Shown here piece by piece: positions 48,356 to 56,246 of a stretch of DNA of 64,000 bases. The notes beneath the pieces are model-generated. The model did not search any database. It had not been told where the DNA came from and worked only from the letters and a program-made list of their open reading frames with translations. A program made the translations under genes and the position numbers. Source of the DNA: Nitrosopumilus sp. K4 (GTDB lineage: Archaea; Thermoproteota; Nitrososphaeria; Nitrososphaerales; Nitrosopumilaceae); NCBI RefSeq assembly GCF_018128925.1, contig NZ_CP067007.1:248001-312000 (forward strand), read 5' to 3'. How positions within the stretch are numbered: position 1 is the first letter of the stretch; each line of letters begins with the position of its first letter.

Positions 48356-48527
48356 TTGATATCGAGTTTTCTGCGGAAGCAACTCTTTGAGTGTGTGGTT
48401 TGTGAAGCCCACCTCATAGAGCAATTTAACAAACTAGATTTGCCCGTAAATGTCGATTTACAGTTAGAATATAGTCATTTTTGACCATTTTATGCCTGAG
48501 CAAATCGGATGGGTAGTTGCACCATGA
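48356..48527 (+). pseudogene. Possible remnant of a small CxxC (glutaredoxin-like) gene, frameshifted
   Basis: From TTG 48356 a 42-codon frame reads MISSFLRKQLFECVVCEAHL and goes on to EYSHF, then TGA at 48482. The T5 run at 48478-48482 breaks it: with one T fewer the frame would continue as DHFMPEQIGWVVAP to a stop at 48525. Thiol motif CVVC followed by a helix and a strand resembles the start of glutaredoxin-like proteins. It could be a pseudogene, a sequencing error, or chance. Confidence 0.35.
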
Positions 48528-48536
48528 TGTTCTTTT

Positions 48537-50069
48537 CTATGTTCTATTTTTGAATGGATTGTAAAAAGTTAAAACTTTTTCTATATATAATAAAAATATC
48601 AAAAACAATACTGGACTAATCCATACAAGAATCCATATTGTGGGATCAGAATTTTTTGCCATTCCAAACCATATTTTTGTATGGTATAACACAGTACTTT
48701 TTGAAATTTGAGTTTCTAGGTAAATAGGTAAATTTACAAAATTATTCAAAACTGCATTATTGAAACTAAATTCCCATCTATCACGAATCAATCTCTCCCA
48801 GAAAAATACTAAAACAAAATAAAAATTCCAGAAGATTAAAACAAATATGCTCAGACTAATTATTGTCTTATATCTTGATTGAATCCATTTTTCAAACAAA
48901 TATGCTAATCCTATTGCCAAAAAAGGAGTAATATCTGCAATTCTTCTTTGTCCAAAAGATGAACCTCCTGCAGTGGCTGCATCCCACGATGATGCATGTA
49001 TGAAAAAAATTATTGCAGTCATGATGCTAATTAAAATTCCTGTTCTGTCTTTTCTACAAAGAAAATAGACACCTATGATTGAAAATAAATAAACTGGATG
49101 CCAAGTGAACACGCCTCTGTTTTCAGAAAATAAAAATTCAAGTATGTGTGTATTGGAAAAATCATAAAATTTTGTTCTGGGCTCTTCGTCTCCGGGAAGT
49201 AAATATACTTGATTTTTTTGAATAGCTTGTTCATAATACTGTTCAATTGGAGATGGAATTGGTATTGGCACACCATACAAAAAATTCCAGTACATCATTT
49301 GTGGGCTGAAAACCACAATGATGAAAAATACAAAAATAGCTAAATTTCCAATCAAAAGTTTTTTGTTTTTTTGTCTTTTGAAAAATATCACGTCCAATAT
49401 AGGGAGTAAAACAAAAACAAAACTAGTCAATCGTACAAGGATCGATAATCCTGTTGCAATTCCCATTAATCCCCAATATTTCTTAGAACTTGTTTCTCTT
49501 AATCTGAGATAGAAATAAACCAACAAAGATGAAGCAAAATAAGAATGTGCATGGGACATGCTAGGCTCCAAAAAAGAATAATAAAAGATTGAAGATGAGA
49601 AAAAAATTGTGATTGTTGTTAAGAATGCAATTTTGTTTCTGAATTTTCCAGACAGTGCATAAAATAGTAAAATATTTCCAAAAAATGAATAGACAACAGA
49701 ACCTAGATTAAAAAATCCTGTATAAATCTGAGAATATCCTCCCTCTTGAGGAACCTCATTAACGGTTGTAATTGTATGTGCAATTAAAAAAAATGGTGCA
49801 TTTAGTAATGAACTCCCAATAGTTTGAATTCCATGCGCCAATCCTGTAGGGGTTTTTAATTCAGTATCGAATCTGTAAAAGGGTCTTTCTTCCAGTTGGT
49901 TTGTAAGATCTAAATCATTATCAAAAAACATCGTATGCAAATTTGCAAAATATAAAATTCCATCGCTGTTTACTCTTTCATTAAAAAAAACACTAAAAAA
50001 CACTAGGTGTAGAATTAATAAAGTTAGAAGATATTTTGATTTGTTATTCCCATTAATCGTTTTCAACAT
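48537..50069 (-). CDS. Multi-spanning membrane protein, GT-C glycosyltransferase-like
   Basis: 510 residues with about 11-12 membrane helices. After the first helix a loop carries FFNERVNSDGILYF, an acidic pair in the place where GT-C enzymes have their catalytic Asp. A further loop has FLEPSMSHAHSYFASS. This fits a lipid-linked-sugar-dependent mannosyl/arabinosyltransferase-like protein, but no exact family was recognised. It marks the left side of the accessory region. Confidence 0.6.
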   Translation of the reverse strand: MLKTINGNNKSKYLLTLLILHLVFFSVFFNERVNSDGILYFANLHTMFFDNDLDLTNQLEERPFYRFDTELKTPTGLAHGIQTIGSSLLNAPFFLIAHTITTVNEVPQEGGYSQIYTGFFNLGSVVYSFFGNILLFYALSGKFRNKIAFLTTITIFFSSSIFYYSFLEPSMSHAHSYFASSLLVYFYLRLRETSSKKYWGLMGIATGLSILVRLTSFVFVLLPILDVIFFKRQKNKKLLIGNLAIFVFFIIVVFSPQMMYWNFLYGVPIPIPSPIEQYYEQAIQKNQVYLLPGDEEPRTKFYDFSNTHILEFLFSENRGVFTWHPVYLFSIIGVYFLCRKDRTGILISIMTAIIFFIHASSWDAATAGGSSFGQRRIADITPFLAIGLAYLFEKWIQSRYKTIISLSIFVLIFWNFYFVLVFFWERLIRDRWEFSFNNAVLNNFVNLPIYLETQISKSTVLYHTKIWFGMAKNSDPTIWILVWISPVLFLIFLLYIEKVLTFYNPFKNRT

Positions 50070-50386
50070 TGCATATTTTCATATCATATCATATCTAGGT
50101 ATATGCTTTAGGTAGATTGCAAGACAATTACTAACTGGCTGAGAGTGATAGGGATTAATCTAAACGATACGTCATCAATCCCGTACAAAATGCATAATGG
50201 CCTTTAAAGATTTGTTATTGGATATTTTCATTTTAAACTCGTACCTGATGTACGTAAATCATTTATCTCCTTACCTATGGTGTTTAAAAAAACATTAATT
50301 TTATTCGGTCAACCACGTAACCCCCGTTAATTTCCGAAAACTGCCCATTTTTTGAAATCAGTTAGAAAGTGGTTAATCTTGACCTG
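50070..50386. other. Gene-free stretch of 317 bases with hairpins
   Basis: No convincing reading frame. It contains the tandem TATCATATCATATCATATC-like start (about 50081-50095), an imperfect stem GGGATT/AATCCC (about 50150-50182) and the perfect hairpin CGTAC-CTGAT-GTACG (50240-50254). It separates the membrane protein's promoter side from the end of the nuclease-TPR gene. An RNA or regulatory role cannot be shown. Confidence 0.5.
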
Positions 50387-52069
50387 TTAACCGAGTCTAT
50401 TCAATAAATCGATGGCATTTTGATAATTAGGATCTATTTCTAAACACTGTAAGGCACATCTTTTTGCATTTTCAAAATCTGCCATGTGTGCATACATTCC
50501 AGCTTTATTGTACCAAGTCTGTGCATGTTTTGGCTCAAATTCTAATATTTTATCTAGTGTTTCAATTGAGGTGCCATTCATTCTTAAACGCGCATAAGAA
50601 TCAGACAGTCCGGTATATGCAGGGATTAGTTTTTTATCCAATTCTATTGCCTTTTGAAAGCTTTGAATTGATTCAACCACCAATCCAGAATCTCTTTGGG
50701 AAATAGCCAAATTCATCCATCCTTCTTTGATTTTTGGTTGTAATTTGGTAGATTTTTCAAAATACGGTATGGATTCTTTTACTTTACCTTCACTTGCTAA
50801 CTTCATTCCCATGTCAAAATTTGTTTTATGTTCGTGATATGCTGGATACAAAAAATATTTAGAAATTGGTTTGATTGATTTTGCATTTACTATGAGTTCA
50901 GGTTTGAACATCGCTCCTAATTGATTAGGCTGTATACTTGTCAATGTATATGATAAAATAATTCCTCCTAATTTTGAGTAATGACCTTTTTCAAAAATAT
51001 CCATAATGAATCTTTTACATGACTCAATAATATTTTCATGTTCATTTTTAGCTTTAACATATACGACATTGACATATTCTGAAATATCAATACACAAAAC
51101 ACGGTAAAATTCATCTGATACATTTTTCAGTTGTTTGTATGCTTTTGCTATTTGGTGTTTTATTGATGTAAGTGGTGTTGGGATGTCATCACTATGAATT
51201 GTTACTGCACGTGGTTCTCTCCAAATTATTCCTTCATTTGTTTTTTGAAATTGAATTCCACTTATCATATATTCAAAAGGTTGATCATTTGGAAAAAACA
51301 TTTTTTCACCAATTGTTTTTTGTTCTAAAGCGGTAAACGTTACTGTGATCCCTTCTTCTGCGAGTTTTGTTTTTTCTGATTTGAGTATTACCTCAACTAA
51401 CTTTGAAATTATTTCTATTTGATCTGGTTTGCTTGGGAATTTTTTTGAACTTATGTTGACAATTCCATTTTTTTGAAATTTATTTAATTGTTTTACAATA
51501 TTGTTTGCTATCTGAATCTTGAATATGTGATCAGGTCCTTCCAATTTTTTACATTCTACATATGTTGTTTCAACATTCCCTGTTTTTAGATCAGGCCATT
51601 TTTTGTCCATATTGTGTTCAAAATCTGCCTTTTCGCCTAGTCTCCTCATCATTCCTGCAATTTTAAATTCATACATTAAACGTCGATATGCTTCTAAATC
51701 TTTGAATCTTGATCTTGCTTCTTTTAGGTAACTGGGGTTTAGAAATTTGTTAAGATCGCCCTTAGTATATGCCCATGCATCCTTTGTTACAAATGACAAA
51801 TCCATTAAATCAGGAATTCTATTTTGAAATTTCTCATCAATTGTTTCAGGATTTTTTTGAATCAGATACTGAATAAACTCTAGAATTGGTATTATGGGGT
51901 GGATCTTTTTGGGAATATCAATTTGTGCAAATTGTTTATTCTTAATTTTATCATATAGGACAGTTTGTGTTTTGATATATTCCTCAGATAGAAAAAATTC
52001 TATGAATTTTTTTATTTCGTCTACATTATCCAAAGATTCTGAACAGCATAACTTCCTCATGTACGACAT
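50387..52069 (-). CDS. PD-(D/E)XK nuclease-fold protein fused to TPR repeats
   Basis: 560 residues. An N-terminal helical part (1-130) is followed by a nuclease-like core: E134 in YEFKIAGM, P159-D160 and then E172-C-K174 (strand TTYVECKK). PD-x11-ExK is the catalytic spacing of restriction-type nucleases. A middle domain (about 210-410) has no recognised fold. Four TPR units end the protein (about 415-560, ESIPYFEKSTKLQPKIKEGWMNLA and following). Not a known named family to me. It is likely to cut nucleic acid and bind a partner through TPRs. It lies 78 bases downstream of the membrane protein on the same strand. Confidence 0.7.
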   Translation of the reverse strand: MSYMRKLCCSESLDNVDEIKKFIEFFLSEEYIKTQTVLYDKIKNKQFAQIDIPKKIHPIIPILEFIQYLIQKNPETIDEKFQNRIPDLMDLSFVTKDAWAYTKGDLNKFLNPSYLKEARSRFKDLEAYRRLMYEFKIAGMMRRLGEKADFEHNMDKKWPDLKTGNVETTYVECKKLEGPDHIFKIQIANNIVKQLNKFQKNGIVNISSKKFPSKPDQIEIISKLVEVILKSEKTKLAEEGITVTFTALEQKTIGEKMFFPNDQPFEYMISGIQFQKTNEGIIWREPRAVTIHSDDIPTPLTSIKHQIAKAYKQLKNVSDEFYRVLCIDISEYVNVVYVKAKNEHENIIESCKRFIMDIFEKGHYSKLGGIILSYTLTSIQPNQLGAMFKPELIVNAKSIKPISKYFLYPAYHEHKTNFDMGMKLASEGKVKESIPYFEKSTKLQPKIKEGWMNLAISQRDSGLVVESIQSFQKAIELDKKLIPAYTGLSDSYARLRMNGTSIETLDKILEFEPKHAQTWYNKAGMYAHMADFENAKRCALQCLEIDPNYQNAIDLLNRLG

Positions 52070-52147
52070 CTTGTTATTTGAAACTTAAGTATTGTTTAGT
52101 GCCTAATGTCTTCTTTGTCTCTTCTCAAATGTATAGTTGACAATCTT

Positions 52148-53278
52148 CTAGTTTGTGTATGCTGTTCTACTCCAATTTTCATCAATACGTGGTGGCATGT
52201 TCTTTTCCATTAAAACAGATTGGATTTTGTCTACAATTCTATATTCTAATAGATGTGCACTATACCAATCTCTAGAATCAATATATTTTCTAATCTGAGA
52301 TTCTGATTCGTATAATTCCTCATTTTTAAAAAAATTCTCATTACAAAACCATGATAATGCTTCTGAAAAAGATATTTCATATCTTGCACTGATTTCTTTT
52401 ACAATTCTATAATTTTCATATAATTCTCCAATTACTGTTAGATTTTCATCTAGTCTCATACCAACTTCTTTGAACTGTTCTGTCCTGAATAACGTTTGAA
52501 ACTCATGTAGGCTGATAGTAATTTCAGGCGAATATTTTTTGTCTATTTCATTGTTTACTCTATTCATTTCACGAAATAACATGTCGATTGCTTTACTTGT
52601 TCGTAATCCTATGACCTTCCATTTCATTCCATCATTAGTCAAATTTGCAAAATCAATTGCAAGATTTGCTATTGTTACTGTACAAATTCTATCCAATTGT
52701 GATAGTTGACTTTGATAAGGAATTAGAAAAGATATGTTTGCAAAAATCTTCACTGATCTTGTTTTAAAATTGTACCCATAAACATGATGAATTAACACCA
52801 TCATGACTCCAACAATACCGATACTTGCAAAAATTCTAATTCCAATTAATGCCAATTCATTTTTTTCAAAAATTTGTGAAAAATCTCCCATGAATGAACG
52901 AATTATGGTTATAACTAAAATAAATGAAAAATATATCATTGCAATAATTTTATCTGTTTCAAATGATATAGATGGTGAAGATAATGCTGCGTTAAAATTT
53001 TTTACAGTTATCTTTTCAATTAATCTGTTATGTTTGAGAATCAAATCGGGCAAAATAATATTACTAATTGTGTTTGAATATTCTCTTCGATAATGCCATT
53101 TTGATAAAAGGGCCAATGGATTGATGATTGTTAAAAGACTTCCAAACATTCCTCCGATAAGTAAAACTCCGATAATTGAAGCATCTGAACCAGTTAAGAT
53201 ATTTGGAAAAAATAATGCAGTAATTGAAAAGGCAAAAGGAAAATCTTTGATATTTAGACCTGTTTTACCTTCTATCAT
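52148..53278 (-). CDS. Four-helix membrane protein with large cytoplasmic C-terminal domain
   Basis: 376 residues. Hydrophobic helices at about 12-28, 33-58, 111-130 and 141-167; the last 200 residues are helical and soluble. No family recognised. It is the first gene of a two-gene minus-strand unit with the nuclease-TPR gene and is divergent from the RHH regulator. This arrangement resembles sensor/effector units of defence systems, but function is inference only. Confidence 0.62.
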   Translation of the reverse strand: MIEGKTGLNIKDFPFAFSITALFFPNILTGSDASIIGVLLIGGMFGSLLTIINPLALLSKWHYRREYSNTISNIILPDLILKHNRLIEKITVKNFNAALSSPSISFETDKIIAMIYFSFILVITIIRSFMGDFSQIFEKNELALIGIRIFASIGIVGVMMVLIHHVYGYNFKTRSVKIFANISFLIPYQSQLSQLDRICTVTIANLAIDFANLTNDGMKWKVIGLRTSKAIDMLFREMNRVNNEIDKKYSPEITISLHEFQTLFRTEQFKEVGMRLDENLTVIGELYENYRIVKEISARYEISFSEALSWFCNENFFKNEELYESESQIRKYIDSRDWYSAHLLEYRIVDKIQSVLMEKNMPPRIDENWSRTAYTN

Positions 53279-53351
53279 ATAATGAGAAATTCATAGTATC
53301 TAAAAAATGATAGTTTTAGATTATTTTTTAAGTTGATTCCATTAAATTTTT

Positions 53352-53436
53352 GTAAACTAAGTTTACTTTGTTAACCCGTTAATTTTCGTTAACCGAGTAA
53401 ACCGAGTTGTTTTAATGCTGATTTTACTTGGTTAAC
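53352..53436 (+). promoter_or_regulatory. Three-copy operator in the RHH gene promoter
   Basis: TTTACTTTGTTAAC (53362-53375), its inverse GTTAACCGAGTAAA (53388-53401) and TTTACTTGGTTAAC (53423-53436) are copies of one 14-mer in orientations plus, minus, plus. Next to the first lies the perfect palindrome GTAAACT-A-AGTTTAC (53352-53366). The third copy abuts the ATG at 53440 and the set spans the TATA region (TTTTAATG, 53410-53417). This is an expected autoregulatory site for the RHH protein and could also control the divergent gene at 53278. Confidence 0.72.
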
Positions 53437-53439
53437 TTC

Positions 53440-53628
53440 ATGAAAGTTGTTGGAACAAAACTTGATGACTCTGATTTTGAAAGATTTCAGAAATATTGTA
53501 CCGATGAGGGTATTTCCAAGAGTGAAATGATGCGTGGATTGATCAGACAGTATTGTGATGCTTGTGAAGAAGATTCAGAAACTCCGTCTGAAATTCTAAA
53601 TCCTACAGTCACAGTAATTGATGACTAA
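53440..53628 (+). CDS. Ribbon-helix-helix transcriptional regulator
   Basis: 62 residues: strand KVVGTKLDDSDFERFQKYC, turn EGISKSEMMRGLIRQY, then an acidic tail. This is a MetJ/Arc-type RHH fold, the DNA being read by the strand (VVGTKL). A TTG at 53428 is in frame, but ATG 53440 leaves the operator outside the gene and gives the usual start. RHH proteins act as dimers on repeated sites like those just upstream. Confidence 0.8.
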   Translation: MKVVGTKLDDSDFERFQKYCTDEGISKSEMMRGLIRQYCDACEEDSETPSEILNPTVTVIDD

Positions 53629-53648
53629 ATTTCCCAAATTCTATATGG

Positions 53649-53740
53649 CTTGATGGCAAGATGCCTGCCCAAGTCTGTGGTATGGAGATCTAGGTAGAGA
53701 ACAAATGGTTGACATTAATACAAAATGCCAGTAATGTCAA
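53649..53740. terminator. Two hairpins in the convergent gap after the RHH gene
   Basis: CTTG-AT-GGCA-AGA-TGCC-TGCC-CAAG (53649-53673) is a two-part stem, and TTGACATTA/TAATGTCAA (53709-53717, 53732-53740) is a perfect 9-bp stem with a 14-base loop. The second overlaps the stop of the DUF4760-like gene. Terminator or RNA function is a guess. Confidence 0.4.
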
Positions 53741-54282
53741 GGTTTGATTTTTTCACCAAAGAAATCTTTGGAAATAGGCATATTGGTTTTAGGATCAGCG
53801 ATACTATGTTTATCTTGTAATCCTTTATCATACCAATAATGTAAACAATCTACAGCCAAATTATGAAAATGCATTCTAAAAAATGGCTGTCCTTGAATCC
53901 GTATATTTTTTAATTCATCATACAAAATACGATATGATATTACAGTTGAATGCCCAAATGTAATGTAATATGATTTGTCAGGAATTAATTTCTCATGCAT
54001 TAGTATCCCTATCTGATCATAATTTCTTTCTATGATTACAGCAAATTCCTTATACGCATCAACAATATGATGTAAATTCATTAATCTATTTTCCCTATAC
54101 GCATCACGAATAGACTCTTCTGCATATTTGTGATCTGAATTAACTAACATATGGAAAACATCCATCATCGCAGTTCTTTCATGTTGTTTTTTATTATAAC
54201 GTATAGTAAAATAACCAATTAATCCAATAACAAACACTGTGGTTATAGGTATGATAATTTCAAACAGCATTTCAATTTCCAT
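53737..54282 (-). CDS. DUF4760-like single-helix membrane protein
   Basis: 181 residues with one N-terminal membrane helix (about 7-27, FEIIIPITTVFVIGLIGYF). A helical cytoplasmic domain follows (MMDVFHMLVNSDHKYAEESIRDAYRENRLM ... NYDQIGILMHEKLI ... YELYDELKN-like stretch and FHNLAVDCLHYW). It resembles DUF4760-type proteins, whose function is unknown but which are frequent in accessory regions. It is convergent with the RHH gene and divergent from the zinc-ribbon gene. Confidence 0.6.
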   Translation of the reverse strand: MEIEMLFEIIIPITTVFVIGLIGYFTIRYNKKQHERTAMMDVFHMLVNSDHKYAEESIRDAYRENRLMNLHHIVDAYKEFAVIIERNYDQIGILMHEKLIPDKSYYITFGHSTVISYRILYDELKNIRIQGQPFFRMHFHNLAVDCLHYWYDKGLQDKHSIADPKTNMPISKDFFGEKIKP

Positions 54283-54346
54283 AAATCATGAATTTCATAC
54301 TAGTTTAAAAGAACTATTTTTTAATCAGTTAATAATTTAAGAATTA

Positions 54347-54688
54347 ATGTCAGTGAAACCAAAACACTTCTCAGAAATTTTTCAAGATGCACCGTCATTG
54401 GCAAAGGCAATAACTAAAGTTTCAAACCACGAGTTGATAGCATGTGGAAAATGTAATGAACCTATAAGAATAATTAGAGAACAAGAACACATTCAACACC
54501 CAACATGGGATGACATAGTAGTAAAATTTTGTACAAAATGTGGAACTGAAATAGATTGGTCAAAATCAGAAAACAATCAAAAAGAATGTAAAAAGTGTAG
54601 CCTGAATTTTGATGTGAATGAATCTTTTTGTATTCACTGTGGCGATACACTAACAATAGTTCCTGAAAGAAAAGACGGAGAATTCTAG
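54347..54688 (+). CDS. Small double zinc-ribbon protein
   Basis: 113 residues with four CxxC knuckles in the C-terminal two thirds: CGKC, CTKC, CKKC and CIHC. These would form two zinc ribbons. The N-terminal third (KHFSEIFQDAPSLAKAITKVSNHELIA) is helical. It probably binds nucleic acid or protein. Adjacent to the integrase; role unknown. Confidence 0.68.
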   Translation: MSVKPKHFSEIFQDAPSLAKAITKVSNHELIACGKCNEPIRIIREQEHIQHPTWDDIVVKFCTKCGTEIDWSKSENNQKECKKCSLNFDVNESFCIHCGDTLTIVPERKDGEF

Positions 54689-54794
54689 TACGGTACTGCC
54701 TAATATTCTACCCGACGAAATTTGACACCTAGAATATCTGACGAAGAGTTTACAGAACCCAAAATAGCAATGCATAATAAAATGCGGTACCGTA
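54689..54794. repeat. Nested inverted repeats next to the integrase gene
   Basis: Outer arms TACGGTACTGC (54689-54699) and GCGGTACCGTA (54784-54794) pair with one mismatch. Inside, ATATTCTA (54703-54710) pairs perfectly with TAGAATAT (54730-54737). GACGAA occurs twice (about 54713 and 54740). The block starts right at the zinc-ribbon stop and ends before the integrase stop. It could be a recombination or arm site of the integrase, a small non-autonomous insertion, or a structured RNA. Confidence 0.5.
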
Positions 54795-54849
54795 TTTGCA
54801 AAATTAATACAAATAATTTCAAAAACATATGTTCAGAATTCACTAATCT

Positions 54850-56193
54850 CTAAAACACATCTAACATTTTCTCTAGTTGTTCAATCATTCCAGATGTGTC
54901 TCCTTGTTTTTTCAATCTCTTTATGATGTCTTTGATTTCTCTTTTTTCCTTAGAATCTCTTAGCATCTCTTGAGATTTTGTACCTGTTGGAATGGTCCAA
55001 TCCTGTTCTCTTTGAACTAATGGAATGAATCTGTTCCAGTCTTCAATCTCTTCATTTGACATTATTTTTGATAACTTTTGGATGTCTGGCTTTTTGCCTC
55101 CAAAACACTCTGTATATCTTGTTTCATATGCAAATACTTTGGCAGTAGCTAACTCTGACAACATTCTCTGCATCAATTCATCTTGTTGTTCTAACTTTTC
55201 CTTTAGTGCTCCATCAAATTCCTCTTTGATTATCCTGATTTCTTTTTCTTTTTCGGCTTCGATTTTAGTTGATTTGTCTAACGTTAAAGCTGGAATTGCT
55301 CTCTTGAACTGTGCATAAAGTTGTTCATCTGACACTCCGTTAAAGTACGCTTTTGAGTTTCCTGAAAAATGTCCTTGCATGTAATCAATGAATCTTTGCT
55401 GTAGATCACAAGATGCAAGGGTAATCTCAAAGCGTTTCCTAAAAGCATGGTTCTGTGACTTTCCTCTCCTTGATTTCCTACCATTATCAATTGAAAGTTT
55501 TGCCTGTTTTCTTACATTTCTAACAACATCTTGAGCTGACGTTGGTGTCAATGGAGTGAGATTGTTTTTTCTTGTAAATAGTACTGAATCAGGCTCTCTT
55601 TCAATTCTTTGTTCAAGGTATCTCTTCAATGCAGTATAAGCTTCTGGTGTCAAACATGTTCTGTATTCTTCTGTAGTATCACGATAAATTGTAACTACTG
55701 CACCATCTTCTATTTCTTTTACATCTTCAATTCTTATGTCAGGTGTAGCTCCAACTCTAACTCCTGTTGAAGACAGAAAATGGATAAACGCCTTGTTTCT
55801 TAGACTTGTTGTGGCACCTAACAATTCTCTAATATCGTCATCTGTGTATGGTAATTGATTTGACGTAGGAATTCTTTGAGGGTATAGATTTTTGATGGTT
55901 TTCCAACTAAACTCAATTTCATTCATTTCTAAAAATGACTGGATTGGAGTCATTATGGCATTGTATGAATTCGGACTTGGAATGCCTGTTTTTCTGGTAA
56001 GTTCTTTTTTGTGAATTACATAATCTTTGATTATCTGTTTAATTTTCTCAGGTTCCAGTTTTATGATACTGTCGTAATCCTGATGTGCATACTCGAAGAA
56101 CTTTTCCAACCAAAGTTTGTACACTTTCTTGGTAGCTTTGGTCTTTAGTGACTCGTAGAATATCTGAGAGGGTGTAGCCATTTGGCATATCAT
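54850..56193 (-). CDS. Tyrosine recombinase (integrase)
   Basis: 447 residues. An N-terminal SAM-like DNA-binding domain (about 8-110) is followed by a catalytic domain with R146 (SSTGVRVGA), H249-x2-R252 (NHAFRKRFE), H275 and nucleophile Y283 (GNSKAYFNG). A lysine strand is likely between. A long C-terminal coiled coil (about 300-450) is unusual for XerC/D. All catalytic residues are present. It is the mark of an integrated element; no tRNA target is adjacent. Start is ATG 56193, or 56181 (MATPSQIFY). Confidence 0.88.
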   Translation of the reverse strand: MICQMATPSQIFYESLKTKATKKVYKLWLEKFFEYAHQDYDSIIKLEPEKIKQIIKDYVIHKKELTRKTGIPSPNSYNAIMTPIQSFLEMNEIEFSWKTIKNLYPQRIPTSNQLPYTDDDIRELLGATTSLRNKAFIHFLSSTGVRVGATPDIRIEDVKEIEDGAVVTIYRDTTEEYRTCLTPEAYTALKRYLEQRIEREPDSVLFTRKNNLTPLTPTSAQDVVRNVRKQAKLSIDNGRKSRRGKSQNHAFRKRFEITLASCDLQQRFIDYMQGHFSGNSKAYFNGVSDEQLYAQFKRAIPALTLDKSTKIEAEKEKEIRIIKEEFDGALKEKLEQQDELMQRMLSELATAKVFAYETRYTECFGGKKPDIQKLSKIMSNEEIEDWNRFIPLVQREQDWTIPTGTKSQEMLRDSKEKREIKDIIKRLKKQGDTSGMIEQLEKMLDVF

Positions 56194-56216
56194 TCCACAG
56201 CATATCTATTAAACGG

Positions 56217-56230
56217 AGTAGGATCCTACT
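56217..56230. promoter_or_regulatory. Perfect 14-bp palindrome between integrase and L15e genes
   Basis: AGTAGGATCCTACT is fully self-complementary and lies just upstream of the L15e TATA box and 23 bases upstream of the integrase start. It suits a dimeric DNA-binding protein or a recombination core. Confidence 0.5.
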
Positions 56231-56236
56231 TTTACA

Positions 56237-56246
56237 GTTATTAAAG
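56237..56246 (+). promoter_or_regulatory. TATA box of L15e
   Basis: GTTATTAAAG is centred about 25 bases before the ATG at 56267. Confidence 0.55.

Follow-up and report, generated by a model that had tools for sequence, protein, structure and literature searches.

What purpose do repeated sequences packed against the start of a small regulatory gene serve, and for which genes? This question was raised by the 85 bp preceding a gene for a 62-residue RHH protein in a 64,000-nt stretch of the Nitrosopumilus sp. K4 genome, hereafter the window, where an initial annotation had noticed three related 14-mers and a palindrome and had proposed an operator switching both the RHH gene and a divergent nuclease operon.

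A regular array of symmetric boxes precedes the RHH gene

All the quoted copies were in place, namely, TTTACTTTGTTAAC on the plus strand at 53362-53375, TTTACTCGGTTAAC on the minus strand at 53388-53401, and TTTACTTGGTTAAC on the plus strand at 53423-53436, and so was the palindrome GTAAACTAAGTTTAC at 53352-53366. The three 14-mers, like the palindrome, belong to a single array of GTWWAC hexamers, a pattern identical to its own reverse complement, with six exact boxes and two boxes carrying one mismatch in steps of 8 to 10 bp; the 14-mer is better described as two hexamer boxes lying 9 bp apart. The array and its gene comprise the following features.

53352..53402, plus strand: upstream part of the array, six GTWWAC-type boxes (sequence; kept in seven of seven species)
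53410..53416, plus strand: TATA-like TTTTAAT, 30 bp upstream of the ATG (sequence and alignment; predicted function)
53422..53436, plus strand: downstream box pair between TATA and ATG (recognizable in four of seven species)
53440..53628, plus strand: RHH gene, 62 aa, presumed binder and target (Pfam RHH_1, E 1.3e-5, 25.4 bits against a curated cut-off of 20.5)

The boxes start at 53352, 53361, 53370, 53378 (GTTAAT, one mismatch), 53388, 53397, 53422 (TTTTAC, one mismatch), and 53431 (GTTAAC), giving steps of 9, 9, 8, 10, and 9 bp, then 25 bp across the TATA-like box, and finally 9 bp. This TATA-like box is the only interruption of the array, and the repeated symmetric boxes sit at the core promoter of the RHH gene itself. 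The last copy, said to touch the ATG, nearly does so but ends 3 nt upstream of the start codon at 53440.

Exact GTWWAC hexamers occur 44 times in the 64-kb window, corresponding to 0.065 expected per 95 bp against the 6 found within the array, and 60 simulated first-order Markov windows never contained more than 3 per 95 bp. The whole array also forms a 21-bp inverted repeat, and a profile built from the window copy and two relatives matched both the array site (E 3.6e-20) and its own reverse strand in a whole-genome search. The same search returned one decayed second copy, outside the training set, at window positions 50303-50343 (E 4.9e-4), while TTTACTNNGTTAAC had no further exact match within the 64-kb window. 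A bacterial promoter and terminator scan of this archaeal region was uninformative.

The array is conserved with the RHH gene and a recombinase

A search of 250 genomes identified a close relative of the RHH protein (MKVVG[TA]K start) in six further species, giving seven Nitrosopumilaceae species with this RHH type, and the array was in place before the gene in all seven. The initial annotation had held that a conserved gene lacking the motif would speak against the operator; the motif was retained in every case. Within the array, the seven species shared a mean pairwise identity of 0.77, compared with 0.30 over the 212 columns on its left side, 0.54 from TATA to ATG, and 0.65 for third codon positions of the RHH gene. 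The most constant part of the array reads GTTAACCCCGTTAATTTTyGTwAAC, then GTwAAC, then GTTgTTTTA, the last of these lying at the TATA-like box and being common to all seven species. Between TATA and ATG, the box pair was recognizable in four species (the window, G159, G204, and G101), while two had a weak version and one had none. Every full array found preceded a gene of this RHH type, apart from the one in G034, which precedes a truncated RHH start.

Gene order was the same in all seven species: variable cargo, array, RHH gene, none to a few more genes, a tyrosine recombinase on the reverse strand, and rpl15e. Among the 250 genomes, a close recombinase (51 to 87% identity) was present in exactly the seven genomes with this RHH gene, the others reaching about 41% or less. 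In the window, the cargo to the left of the array consists of two genes.

52148..53278, minus strand: divergent 376-aa gene, cargo, not a conserved neighbor of the array (no Pfam match; neighborhood comparison)
50387..52069, minus strand: 560-aa gene, cargo, with C-terminal TPR repeats (domain and homolog search)

The 560-aa gene is the one that had been labeled a nuclease, but its library matches included no nuclease domain and pointed to TPR repeats instead; no homolog of the protein was found at E 1e-20 in the 250 family genomes. A two-gene cargo block, encoding a winged-helix-like protein of ~114 aa and a protein of ~100 aa, was observed in three species, left of the array or at the insertion hotspot described below (L067 6554-7556, L071 5259-6268, and L232 4887-5817, all reverse complement), with its order inverted between L067 and L071.

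The array lies inside an integrative element at rpl15e

The array belongs to an integrative element that carries a tyrosine recombinase, a context that the initial annotation had missed. The island in the window comprises two elements, E1 and E2, in tandem.

48457..48466, plus strand: att core TTTACAGTTA, left end of the island and of E1, followed by a left-end motif at 48467-48486
50299..50342, plus strand: decayed half array closing E1 on its right side, with 17 nt separating it from the CAGTTA core (profile search and sequence)
50359..50364, plus strand: CAGTTA core at the E1/E2 junction, left end of E2, followed by the left-end motif GAAAGTGGTTAATCTTGACC at 50365-50384
50365..56230, no strand: body of E2, with the 560-aa gene, the 376-aa gene, the array, the RHH gene, two further genes, and the recombinase (end motifs and att cores)
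54850..56193, minus strand: tyrosine recombinase of the element (Phage_integrase, E 5.5e-13; PHROG integrase match)
56217..56230, no strand: palindrome AGTAGGATCCTACT in the recombinase-rpl15e gap, forming the right-end motif of the element (predicted function)
56231..56240, plus strand: att core TTTACAGTTA bounding E2 on the right, within the rpl15e promoter region

E1 spans 48467-50358 with a gene at 48537-50069, while E2 is about 5.9 kb long and adjoins rpl15e, the 10-bp att core standing in direct repeat at both island ends. In the element-free genomes G047, G032, G034, G017, and G049, the neighbor gene P210 (47645-48277 in the window) lies directly beside rpl15e, and the empty site of G047 is GATTTACAGTTATTAAAGGGG, with nearly identical sequences in the other four. 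Left ends continue as GAAAGTGGTTATTTTTGACC or a variant of it at ten junctions in seven genomes, and a junction model recovered copies outside its building set at the P210-rpl15e place in G216, G197, G241, and G177. Joined ends would give CTACTTTTACAGTTAGAAAGTGG, in which imperfect inverted arms flank a common core, an arrangement to be expected of a tyrosine recombinase site. Tandem elements were seen in several genomes including the window, with internal junctions also in G201, G101, and G204. The located ends mark a hotspot for integration at the promoter of a ribosomal protein gene, with elements building up in tandem.

The P210-rpl15e interval (48457-56240 in the window) was empty in several relatives and filled with tandem site-specific elements in others. 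In G197 (L231 2093-3235), an element of ~1.1 kb, flanked by P210-side synteny on one side and rpl15e on the other, retained only both ends and a decayed recombinase. Neither a tRNA target nor an RNA gene was found nearby, and no free or viral copies were found. No GTWWAC box lies just upstream of the recombinase gene, which has the different palindrome AGTAGGATCCTACT there, probably part of the recombinase promoter or of an att arm. This perfect palindrome was conserved in the window, G159, G177, and G101 and nearly conserved in G204.

By type, the locus combines an RHH autoregulatory operator with the thaumarchaeal cryptic integrated element that contains it, and both kinds are known (PMC6563490, PMC8371274). 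Like the cryptic integrated elements described earlier, it is small, bears a recombinase, carries variable cargo, and has very short att sites (PMC6563490); the tyrosine recombinase lies inside it, att repeats are direct, and empty sites exist in G047 and G032. RHH proteins (arCOG08805) are listed among the commonest iMGE families, with a count of 9 (PMC6563490). Unlike in those elements, insertion here is in the rpl15e promoter region and elements occur in tandem, and the text of that paper mentions neither L15e nor an RHH operator (PMC6563490). A limited literature search found no description of the GTWWAC box, the 9-bp step, the rpl15e site, or the tandem elements.

Half arrays occur apart from the RHH gene

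Strong half arrays, consisting of GTTAACnnnGTTAACCCCGTTAATTTTTGTAAAC followed by unrelated DNA, were found in five genomes lacking this RHH gene and the recombinase (G214:C36:16899, G157:C103:9839, G216:C96:26182, G201:C1:812594, and G003:C3:244550), indicating that the left half has, or had, a use apart from the RHH promoter. In two cases a half array closes a recombinase-less element, lying 8 nt ahead of the CAGTTA core in G201 and 17 nt ahead of it in E1 of the window, whereas in G216 a CAGTTA follows 24 nt further on, away from rpl15e. Among the five strong copies, only that of G201 is clearly at an element end. Ordinary promoter operators of other genes were considered and rejected, since the orphan copies were not consistently at gene starts. 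No pair of half arrays flanking a segment within one genome, as attL and attR would, was found.

In G034 (C1:1021954-1022070; L129 3954-4070), a full array and the first RHH codons are fused to recombinase-upstream sequence at a shared 6-bp stretch, GTAGTT, away from rpl15e. This array is a relic of a former element.

Self-repression is the best-supported role of the array

The array, which is real, conserved, and of a known general kind, is very probably an autoregulatory operator of the element-encoded RHH protein, its putative binder, and would serve as a docking strip for self-control. RHH dimers would sit side by side on GTWWAC boxes that have two-fold symmetry and follow one another at about 9 bp, next to the TATA-like box; in the window genome, they would also cover the presumed leaderless transcript start. 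As the RHH level rises, TBP/TFB and RNA polymerase would be excluded and the gene shut down. We infer RHH binding of the boxes, repression as its effect, and the leaderless transcript, whereas the array, its conservation, its co-occurrence with the RHH gene and recombinase, and the element ends were observed directly. Together, the RHH gene, the array, and the tyrosine recombinase make up a conserved unit of this small integrative element. The operator assignment made initially for the RHH gene is supported by the retention of array and gene together in all seven species and by the analogous arrays of sister RHH genes. As for the blocking of a leaderless start, also proposed initially, it is plausible for the window but not universal, the box between TATA and ATG being recognizable in only four of seven species. 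Indeed, the missing or weak state of the ATG-nearest box pair in the other three counts against the operator reading, as do the strong half arrays of the five genomes that lack this RHH gene.

Self-repression appears to be the best-supported mode because the array flanks the TATA-like box on both sides, by analogy with known archaeal viral RHH repressors. Such repressors bind the promoters of their own genes, one of them at tandem repeats that overlap the BRE and the start, and are thought to spread cooperatively, excluding TBP and TFB (PMC5569661). Like SvtR, AvtR, and F55 (PMC5569661), the protein studied here is a small mobile-element RHH protein with putative sites in its own promoter, but it has GTWWAC every 9 bp rather than the ATAGATAG tandem repeats or long inverted repeats of those repressors, and its host belongs to the Nitrosopumilaceae. 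The protein also resembles the aCcr1 family of RHH cell-cycle regulators of Sulfolobales in being a putative archaeal RHH repressor, but its weak profile match of 21.9 bits is far below the curated cut-off of 60, and its gene lies in a mobile element. Among bacteria, tandem-box RHH operators include the 8-bp boxes of MetJ, the 7-bp heptads of omega, and CopG. With these the array shares short, regularly spaced, two-fold symmetric boxes at an own or target promoter and, as proposed here, serial RHH dimers; it differs in its 9-bp step and archaeal core promoter, and beyond the RHH fold there is no recognizable sequence relation. The array offers a precise and testable candidate operator, with box, spacing, and promoter position, for a mobile-element regulator in ammonia-oxidizing archaea.

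Other roles have to be weighed against self-repression. Joint control of the leftward 376-aa/560-aa pair together with the RHH gene is improbable: although 73 bp separate the array from the leftward start codon, so that bound RHH could affect that promoter, the array hugs the TATA-like box of the RHH gene and stays constant while its left neighbor is a different gene in every other species and runs toward the array in four of the six relatives. A neighbor so variable and mostly not divergent indicates that the divergent pair in the window is interchangeable cargo, and the initially proposed control of a divergent operon was therefore not borne out. On bacterial plasmids, RHH proteins bound to repeats before their own gene serve partition or copy control, and ParG and CopG were among the nearest, albeit weak, structural matches of the RHH model. 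A plasmid-type centromere or copy-control site of the excised element, as for ParG, omega, and CopG, is nevertheless highly unlikely, given that the Foldseek matches were RHH folds without significance (best E 0.48), that neither a partition ATPase nor a replication gene was recognized in the element, and that no free or viral copy turned up.

The array could additionally be an accessory site for recombination, where bound RHH or recombinase aids excision or integration and RHH acts as a directionality factor. Its strict co-occurrence with one recombinase subfamily, its inverted symmetry, and the half arrays 8 nt (G201), 17 nt (E1), and 24 nt (G216) before a CAGTTA at or resembling an element end are in favor of this role; it is still unlikely, as crossover occurs at TTTACAGTTA, which in E2 is 2.8 to 3 kb distant from the array, and as arrays also accompany sister RHH genes that have no such recombinase nearby. 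Moreover, archaeal integrases characterized so far need no directionality factor (PMC8371274). The array as the crossover junction itself was rejected, the element-host junctions carrying TTTACAGTTA and not the array. There is a slim chance that RHH has two jobs on the same boxes, repressing itself and moving or marking recombinase-less neighbor elements through half arrays near att cores, in which case a single RHH protein would govern the rpl15e site as an archaeal platform for cassette accretion.

A second box type accompanies more distant RHH genes

Eight more distant RHH genes (MKTVSTK start) were preceded by arrays of another box, GTmTAC, in ~10-bp steps, with 12 GT[CT]TAC boxes observed upstream of the eight against 0.9 expected and the variant box CTATTCG upstream of all eight. 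The order box, box, variant box, box in these arrays resembles GTTAACnnnGTTAACCCCGTTAATTTTyG, and the recombinase was absent within about 4.5 kb of these genes.

Strand positions 3 and 5, which face DNA in other RHH proteins, are V and G in the GTWWAC-type proteins as opposed to T and S in the GTmTAC type. Two subfamilies with different residues at these positions and different boxes fit a co-changed protein-operator pair, and between them the box seems to have changed in step with the protein, possibly in a single event, which lends the pairing support rather than proof. The AlphaFold model of the RHH protein (pLDDT 63, single chain, strand unformed) was too weak to place DNA-facing side chains, and a sequence search of solved structures gave no real relative. 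The two natural box-protein pairs, GTWWAC with V3/G5 and GTmTAC with T3/S5, would make DNA specificity testable through an exchange of two residues.
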